Below, piece by piece: positions 22,089-27,474 of a stretch of 64,000 bases of DNA (position 1 is the stretch's first letter; every line of letters begins with the position of its first letter). The position numbers were made by a program, and so were the translations under genes. The DNA is taken from contig NZ_KB911581.1 in the NCBI RefSeq assembly GCF_000383595.1, positions 5,973,519 through 6,037,518 of the forward strand, written 5' to 3'. The notes under the pieces are model-generated. The model was given only the letters and a program-made list of their open reading frames with translations, did no database searches and was not told the origin of the DNA. The stretch is from Streptomyces bottropensis ATCC 25435. GTDB lineage: Bacteria > Actinomycetota > Actinomycetes > Streptomycetales > Streptomycetaceae.

Positions 22089-25715
<3,627 letters not shown>

Positions 25716-25802
25716 GCGGCTGCTGGCCTTCCTCGGGGTCCGCGCCCCGGGCGGTGTCGGATCGGAGTCTCCCCTGCTCGGACGGGCCGAGGGGTACGGG
25801 GA

Positions 25803-26105
25803 AGGGAGTTCCTGACTTGCCCGCCCCTCCTGGGACGGACTCACAGTGGCGGGACCGCGCCGGACTCGCACCGGCTTCCTCCCCTAGGGTCTGTCGTCAC
25901 GTTCCCGTCTGCCCCGCGACGCCTGGCACGCACTCTCGCCGCACCGGGCGAAAGCCCAAGTACGTCCAGTACGAGGTCTTTCGCCCGGCACGCCGAGAGC
26001 ACGCACCAGACGCCGCGGGGCCGCCCTTCGGGCGACGACGGGAATGTGACGACAGACCCTAGCGCCGTGGTGGCGTCGGCGGACCGGATGATCCGCCAAG
26101 CAGCA
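25803..26105 (-). promoter_or_regulatory. Cobalamin riboswitch of cobN, apparently interrupted by a MITE
   Basis: On the minus strand the conserved core reads GGAAGCCGGTGCGAGTCC, then CGGTCCCGCCACTGTGA (25841-25857) and the 3' box GTCAGGAACTC (25807-25817). This is a class typical of actinobacterial B12 riboswitches. The 5' part expected directly before GGAAGCC is not adjacent. Instead a CTAG-bounded hairpin element intervenes, and a plausible 5' part (CATCCGGTCCGCC and a GGCG-CTAG junction) lies beyond it at 26063-26095, after a TACTAT -10-like box at 26104-26109. The core is certain; the interrupted arrangement is inferred. Confidence 0.85.
25884..26062. mobile_element. MITE-like hairpin element with CTAG target duplication
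   Basis: About 175 bp between two copies of CTAG (25884-25887 and 26059-26062). The ends are inverted repeats: GGTCTGTCGTCACGTTCCCG on the left and its complement, with one mismatch, on the right. The interior is also self-complementary (GCACGCACTCTCG against CGAGAGCACGCAC, CCGGGCGAAAG against CTTTCGCCCGG), so almost the whole element can fold as one long hairpin. There is no coding capacity. CTAG duplication is typical of IS5-group transposition, which would have been supplied in trans. Confidence 0.8.
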
Positions 26106-26145
26106 TAGTAAGGGTCGCCTCAAAAGGGCGGAGAGTACGTCCCCG

Positions 26146-27474
26146 ATGCCGGTGGGTATGCTCGCGGCCATGTCCACGCCTCCCGTCCGATCATCGTCCC
26201 AGGCCACGGCGGTCACACGGGACCGTGGCGACGCCTGCCCGGGGACGCTGCGGCTGCACGCGGCGGACGACGGGGCGCTGGCCCGGGTCCGGGTGCCCGG
26301 TGGGGTGCTGACCGTCCGCCAGGCCGAGGCGCTCGCGGAGGCGACCCGGCGGCTCGGGGACGGTGATCTTCACCTCACCTCACGCGGCAACGTGCAACTG
26401 CGGGGGCTCGCCGACGGCTGCGGGGGCGCGCTGGCCGAGGCACTGGACGCGGCCGGGCTGCTCCCCTCCCCCGCGCACGAACGGGTGCGCAACATCGTCG
26501 CCTCCCCGCTGTCCGGTCTCGACGGGCGGGGCCTGCGGGACGTACGGCCCTGGCTGTCGGGCCTCGACGATGCACTGTGTGCGAGCGAGGCGGCACGGGA
26601 GTTGTCCGGCCGGTTCCTGTTCGCGCTCGACGACGGGCGGGGGGACGTGAGCGGGCTCGACGCCGACGTGACCCTGCGGGCGGAGGCGGACGGCCGCGCG
26701 CGCTTGAGCCTCGGCACGGCCGCCGAGGCCCTGTCGGTCTCCGGCGAGGACGCGCCCCGGGCCGCGCTGACGGCCGCCGAGACCTTCCTGGCGGCGGCGC
26801 GGGAGGGCGGGTCCCGCGTCTGGCGCGTGGCCGAACTCCCGCTCCCGGACGGGCTGTTCCCCCTGGTCCGGGACCGTCTGGCCGCCACCGGGATCGAGGC
26901 GGTGAGCCGGCCGCGTACGGCCACCGGGCCGGGCCCGGCCGAGGGTCCGCCCCCCGGAGCCGTGGGCGAGGCCCTGTCCGTACACGCCCCCCTCGGCCGC
27001 CTCACCGCCCCCCAGTGGCGGGAGTTGACCGCTCTCGCGTCCACGACCGCCCGCCGTGAACTGCGGCTGACGCCCTGGCGCGGAGTCGTGGTCCCGGTTC
27101 CGGGCCTGGGCGAGGAGCGGGCGGCCGACGCGCTCGCCCGGCTGTCCGGGACCGGTCTCGTCACCGATCCCGCCTCCCCCTGGCTCCGCGTCGGCGCCTG
27201 CATCGGGCGGCCCGGCTGCGCCAAGTCCCTGGCGGACGTACGGGCGGACGCGACCACGCACCTCGACGCGGCACGGCACGGCGGCGGCCTGCCCCTGTAC
27301 TGGTCCGGCTGCGAGCGCCGCTGCGGACATCCCCGGGGCGAACGCGTCGACGTGGTGGCCGTGCCGGACGGTGGCTACCGGCTCTCCCGCACCGCCCCCG
27401 GACACGACCCCCGGACCGCGCCCCTGGAGGATGCCTCCCGACTCGCCACCGCCCTGGAGGAGATCACCTCGTAG
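26146..27474 (+). CDS. cobG: Precorrin-3B synthase CobG
   Basis: 442 residues of the nitrite/sulfite reductase ferredoxin-fold family. The N-terminal half has [15 protein letters not shown]. The C-terminal cluster-binding cysteines occur in [12 protein letters not shown] and [14 protein letters not shown]. CobG uses O2 to make precorrin-3B, the defining ring-contraction step of the aerobic cobalamin route. The start is taken at 26146 (GGAGAG upstream); ATG 26170 is possible. It is divergent from cobN across the riboswitch/MITE region and begins the cobG-cobH-cobIJ run. Confidence 0.9.

Follow-up and report, generated by a model that had tools for sequence, protein, structure and literature searches.

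In cobalamin riboswitches, binding of Cbl takes place mainly in the four-way junction of P3-P6, with peripheral domains tuning selectivity (reviewed in PMC10907184). In the ppe2 switch of Mycobacterium tuberculosis, the P3-P6 junction serves as the pocket and the P1-P3 arm is fused, while J6/3 lacks the UCU motif seen in other Class IIb switches (PMC11260477). For Streptomyces lividans TK24, 21 of 22 cis-elements were reported to be transcribed, and the cbiM entry carries an asterisk (PMC8079986). MITEs, for their part, have been speculated to form riboswitches, and the sections of that account available to us contain no case of a MITE within a known riboswitch (PMC10969869). We likewise found no such description in the open-licence literature of PubMed Central, which was represented by partial texts and included PMC10969869, PMC9208149, PMC11260477, PMC10907184 and PMC8079986.

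Here we describe a MITE-like element in the cobN leader of Streptomyces bottropensis ATCC 25435, located in a 64,000-nucleotide stretch of the genome that we call the window. A sequence-only reading of this DNA had proposed that the element splits the cobN riboswitch and that the RNA hairpin of the element may reunite the two halves. That reading misplaced the element relative to the aptamer, since it lies beside the aptamer and not inside it.

Results

Architecture of the cobN leader

Positions are those of the window.

22089-25715, minus strand: cobN, cobaltochelatase subunit, 1208 aa (TIGR02257, 1151.7 bits, E 0; start ATG located)
25725-25734, minus strand: Shine-Dalgarno-like GAGGAAGG region of cobN, read from the sequence
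25802-25808, minus strand: 3´ strand (CUCCCUU) of the core-closing P1-P3-type helix, pairing with 25885-25879
25806-25881, minus strand: cobalamin riboswitch core, RF00174 model positions 45-169 (43.9 bits, gathering score 31.5)
25806-25818, minus strand: B12 box of the core
25879-25885, minus strand: 5´ strand (AGGGGAG) of the core-closing helix; the leading AG overlaps the terminal CTAG of the element
25884-26062, no strand assigned: MITE-like self-complementary element, 179 bp, CTAG-bounded, with 26-nt terminal arms
26063-26075, minus strand: hairpin B (CGCC/GGCG), abutting the element on the promoter side
26078-26097, minus strand: hairpin A, a 5´ leader hairpin
26104-26111, minus strand: TTACTATG, probable -10 box of the cobN promoter
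26146-27474, plus strand: cobG (precorrin-3B synthase), divergent neighbour (TIGR02435, 252.5 bits, cut-off 234.8)

The TIGR02257 score of the downstream gene upholds the earlier assignment of the riboswitch to cobN. The GGAAGCC motif occupies 25879-25873 with the element directly upstream, and the CTAG-bounded hairpin that had been noticed at this place is confirmed, as complementary arms within 25884-26062 next to a minus-strand riboswitch. The outer arms (26 nt) are 96% complementary and the inner arms (53 nt) 77%. Like other MITEs, the element is short, non-coding and flanked by terminal inverted repeats, and it is both repeated and mobile, as seen from matches across the genus and from an empty site in a sister genome. 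As to a target-site duplication, the CTAG at the two ends is itself palindromic, and some other copies end in CCAG/CTGG, which would fit inverted-repeat ends better than a direct duplication.

A survey that scored two candidates per genome found matches to the element in 234 of 295 genus genomes, the genome of the window counted. That genome holds one full copy, the one in the window, and a further match of 102 bp to the inner part; it also has nine matches to GGNCTGTCKTCA, with paired ends at the window element only. Among 17 aligned copies, double changes at 20 of 68 consensus pairs indicate that the hairpin is kept through paired changes. A simple consensus scan of 25700-26200, covering some promoter types, found no promoter-like or terminator-like consensus that the element might bring with it.

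The 102-bp match (C1:5751205-5751306) belongs to a relative of the element (locus L002, about 1478-1638) with the same inner hairpin (92% over 102 bp) and other terminal repeats (about 24 bp, by eye). It looks as though its ends had been exchanged, as if the MITE family were modular.

Empty sites in related genomes

The comparison of cobN leaders drew on the best 30 loci, one of which is the window, leaving 29 relatives. A sister genome (G108; 97% over the query) lacks the element, and its leader passes from the 5´ hairpins straight into the core; between hairpin A and the core the leaders of 28 of the 29 relatives are uninterrupted; the remaining one (G254) is interrupted elsewhere. The element is a real insertion into the cobN leader. 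The sequence on its far side, already suspected of being a 5´ part of the same leader, is the true 5´ continuation, as the sister and other aligned relatives carry it joined to the core.

No insertion at the same site was present in any of the 29 relatives' leaders fetched. A pattern for the same site gave 13 matches across 84,980 species genomes, none of them from Streptomyces by record title, in a search from which the genome of the window and very near ones were possibly excluded. A shared or selected insertion at this site was rejected, given no second case among the 29 leaders or, by title, among the 13 matches. The window and its sister differ at 3 of 70 aligned columns in the 5´ region, 5 of 77 in the core and 3 of 67 in the platform, part of the core difference reflecting a one-base misalignment of the sister around the element junction; with a sister this close, conservation cannot serve as proof that function has been kept since the insertion.

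An alignment of 29 leaders (28 relatives and the joined window) places the element between hairpin B and the closing helix, where it breaks no helix and replaces a conserved ACA linker. This linker reads ACA in 23 of the 29 aligned leaders, TCA in three, ACAA in one and ATCA in the sister; the joined window junction, now cut by the element, reads CTA if a single CTAG is kept. Hairpin A shows compensatory double changes at five of its eight pairs, and hairpin B is paired in 94.8% of cells with no double changes. Four pairs of the closing helix are standard in all 29 leaders and a fifth in 28, the exception being the misaligned sister, while the outer two are standard in 19 and 21 of 29, with no double changes. 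The inner part of this helix hardly varies and thus gives little evidence either way. The eight bases of the probable -10 box are shared by 19 of the 28 aligned relatives.

After the common core, these leaders carry one of two kinds of expression platform, either CTCCC then T/C (21 of 29, the window among them) or CTCCCGCCGT (8 of 29). With the short kind of platform, GACGGC of hairpin B could pair with a downstream GCCGUC. One leader (L018) has an extra hairpin-like stretch between the -10 box and hairpin A that does not align with the others.

The riboswitch core

The RF00174 match in the window runs unbroken and is confined to the 3´ side of the element. Core and B12 box are therefore in one piece (25881-25806), as the sequence-only reading had stated. 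Its further claim that the element splits the aptamer is not supported, as the sister, which has no element, is matched over an identical span of the model. That reading had also expected the score to rise once the element was removed. With the natural empty site of the sister standing in for the joined window sequence, no gain was seen (43.4 bits, model 45-169, versus 43.9), an outcome that the reading itself had named as refuting it. Nor does a hairpin that reunites two halves fit a core and B12 box that are whole downstream, with an intact sister that scores no better.

Model positions 1-44, the 5´ P1/P2 part, are unmatched in the window and in the sister, so this lineage leaves them unmatched even without the element; the family cut-off does not need them. 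A scan of relatives covered 20 of the 30 fetched loci and left only G254 without a match at the gathering score. Four of the 19 matches cover model 1-189 and three more start at 22, so that in some relatives the 5´ region of the model can be recognised in part.

Both the B12 box and the core helices are conserved. The pairs of P4 and of the P6 base are standard in every one of the 29 aligned leaders, and five of eight pairs of the P6 extension show compensatory changes. Six bases replace 52 model positions in the window core, which is to say that it has no P8-P12 extension. Just before AGYCAGG, the window has an A where all 28 relatives aligned have a G. A purine is allowed at this place in the B12 box; going by sequence, the A is possibly a sign of decay.

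A complete second aptamer in 25600-26200 was rejected, as this region gave one RF00174 match and six other rows that were below gathering scores and chance-like. The whole genome has five RF00174 matches above the cut-off and one below, among which the cobN riboswitch ranks fourth.

Predicted folding of the leader RNA

The predicted fold of the leader (25780-26150) has z = -12.6 against 100 shuffles. Between the element and the rest of the leader, 0.12 pairs are expected, whereas 60 shuffled inserts average 38.6 (range 9.1-84.2). P4 has a mean pairing of 0.645 when the element is present and 0.649 when it is absent, and the P6 base 0.513 and 0.522; shuffled inserts give similar averages that are very variable (P4 0.605, sd 0.40; P6 base 0.486, sd 0.32). 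The closing helix has a predicted probability of 0.02 in free RNA, with or without the element. When the element is given 175-nt bounds, cross-pairs number 4.0 versus 40.4 (60 shuffles), and the outside fold is also kept in one of the 60 shuffles. In these predicted folds the window element is almost self-contained and core pairing is unchanged, and the earlier description of a self-folding MITE in the cobN leader stands, with pairing almost only within the element itself.

Riboswitches interrupted by the same MITE family

The idea of a split aptamer finds no support in the window, but it does fit two other genomes, G254 and G118, where the same MITE family interrupts the aptamer. These two cases, outside the window, are the more surprising part of our results. 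In G254 (L016), the MITE lies inside the cobN aptamer, in the P6-extension hairpin. The leftover core piece scores 23.4 bits with RF00174, below the gathering score of 31.5, and a laxer scan gave 34.6 bits with RF01482 (gathering 50). In G118 (L095, 1444-1804), it lies in a cbiM riboswitch (gene identity by TIGR00123, 277.6 bits), between the core and a P8-P12-type region, with RF00174 matches of 36.7 and 29.6 bits on either side, each running into the element. The G118 insert is predicted to form 0.0 cross-pairs versus 46.7, with a fold overlap of 0.91 versus at most 0.74 in 40 shuffles. For the G254 insert, the values are 1.6 versus 42.0 cross-pairs and an overlap of 0.58, which is not outstanding among 40 shuffles (0.06-0.82).

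Pattern scans for such cases were limited to certain MITE end types. The pattern CCACTGTGAN{3,33}TGTCGTCA occurred in 5 of 392 genomes, of which G254 and G118 are real; G357 was rejected, its sequence looking like a gene start, and G096 and G360 share their string with it. Two of 382 genomes, G254 and G295, matched CCACTGTGAN{190,220}AGYCAGGAA, and two of 234, the window and G213, matched TTACTATGN{200,230}GGAAGYC; both G295 and G213 were judged unrelated from the printed sequence. The pattern GACGACAGN{3,33}GGAAGYC was uninformative, matching at least 344 of 392 genomes, with a reversed control that was similar or larger by eye. A MITE-like end near GGAAGYC was noticed in a few of the matches listed for this last pattern.

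Discussion

The reading we favor, and regard as rather likely, is that the MITE adjoins an intact B12 aptamer as an insulated extra hairpin and that the switch still represses cobN with B12. In this model, a non-autonomous MITE inserted between the two conserved 5´ hairpins and the aptamer-closing helix, such that the B12-binding core, the B12 box and the expression platform stay contiguous downstream. Because the element landed just outside the vitamin-sensing core, the sensor is probably intact. Transcription of the leader would depend on the -10-like box, which lies upstream of the element, and in the RNA the element would fold back as one long, nearly isolated hairpin and so act as an inert extra helix. 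If the pocket follows the P3-P6 junction architecture, sequence 5´ of the closing arm would lie outside it; the element can thus be taken as an added, self-contained helix, and B12 binding and cobN repression would be expected to survive the insertion. From general knowledge, we might guess that RNase III trims the long duplex, leaving the core attached to cobN.

Two other readings give the insertion a larger effect on the switch. The insertion may have damaged it, such that cobN escaped B12 control, or the long hairpin or cleavage of it may have silenced the gene. The replaced ACA linker, the A next to the B12 box where 28 of 28 relatives have G, and the very stable hairpin that now stands between the -10-like box and cobN would all agree with damage. 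However, core and platform are otherwise nearly as in the sister, predicted core folding is unaffected, and no terminator-like site appeared in the simple consensus scan of 25700-26200, and we regard such damage as unlikely. A truly split aptamer, with the MITE hairpin bringing two essential halves together, seems to us more doubtful still. Homology and conservation extend to the sequence beyond the element, hairpin A covaries, and several relatives align to the 5´ region of RF00174, four of them over model 1-189 and three more from position 22. Yet in the four full-length alignments several pairs of the outer 5´ helix are absent or non-standard, the uninterrupted leader of the sister matches only 45-169 and gains no score, and no helix of the genus structure is broken by the insertion. 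We found nothing in favor of an assembly or annotation artefact, for which there seems hardly any room with a single 8.96-Mb contig at 99.98% completeness, no second full copy found in the genome that might cause a misjoin, and a clean empty site in relatives.

Beyond the extra-hairpin reading of the window, a broader and more tentative proposal, to which we give somewhat less than even chances, is that this MITE family repeatedly enters Streptomyces cobalamin riboswitch leaders where an extra helix spares the four-way junction, that the switches still work, and that fold-back is the cause of the tolerance. The positions that would be tolerated, in an equally tentative list, are the sequence 5´ of the closing helix, the loop of the P6 extension and the peripheral arm of class I. 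If true, the natural insertions would chart where an RNA sensor tolerates added sequence. Nature has provided three constructs, one with the MITE beside the aptamer, which is the mildest case, and two with it inside, and the uninterrupted cobN relatives can serve as controls. Such insertions would allow tests of the sequence tolerance of riboswitches and of the near-silence of self-folding mobile elements in structured leaders. They also warn that a riboswitch with a MITE in it can be overlooked or cut in half by covariance-model scans, as with G254 cobN (23.4 versus 31.5 bits) and the two matches at G118 cbiM.

The window core resembles the family RF00174 (clan CL00101) in its score of 43.9 bits, its B12 box, its core helices and its place upstream of cobN, and differs in that model 1-44 is unmatched, as in the sister, and in the 179-bp MITE directly upstream. 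S. lividans TK24 also has RF00174 elements upstream of cobD-cobQ-cobN and of cbiM, and the TTACTATG box of cobN fits the TAnnnT -10 sequence reported for that species; unlike the window, the S. lividans riboswitches come with no mention of a MITE in the sections of the report consulted (PMC8079986). The element itself shares with described prokaryotic MITEs its short, non-coding sequence, terminal inverted repeats and self-folding transcript (PMC10969869). The aptamer also has a likeness to the ppe2 switch of M. tuberculosis, which is Class IIb-like, with GGAA by P4, a short P6 extension, no P8-P12 and a short closing arm, although ppe2 is a different gene from cobN and no ligand preference is assigned to the window aptamer (PMC11260477). 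A UCU at J6/3 was not recognised by eye in GGAACUCCC of the window. Both features given for Class IIb in the parts of that study consulted, GGAA at J3/4 and no P8-P12 extension, are found in the window, and by analogy its aptamer resembles the ppe2 switch in its GGAA junction and truncated P6.
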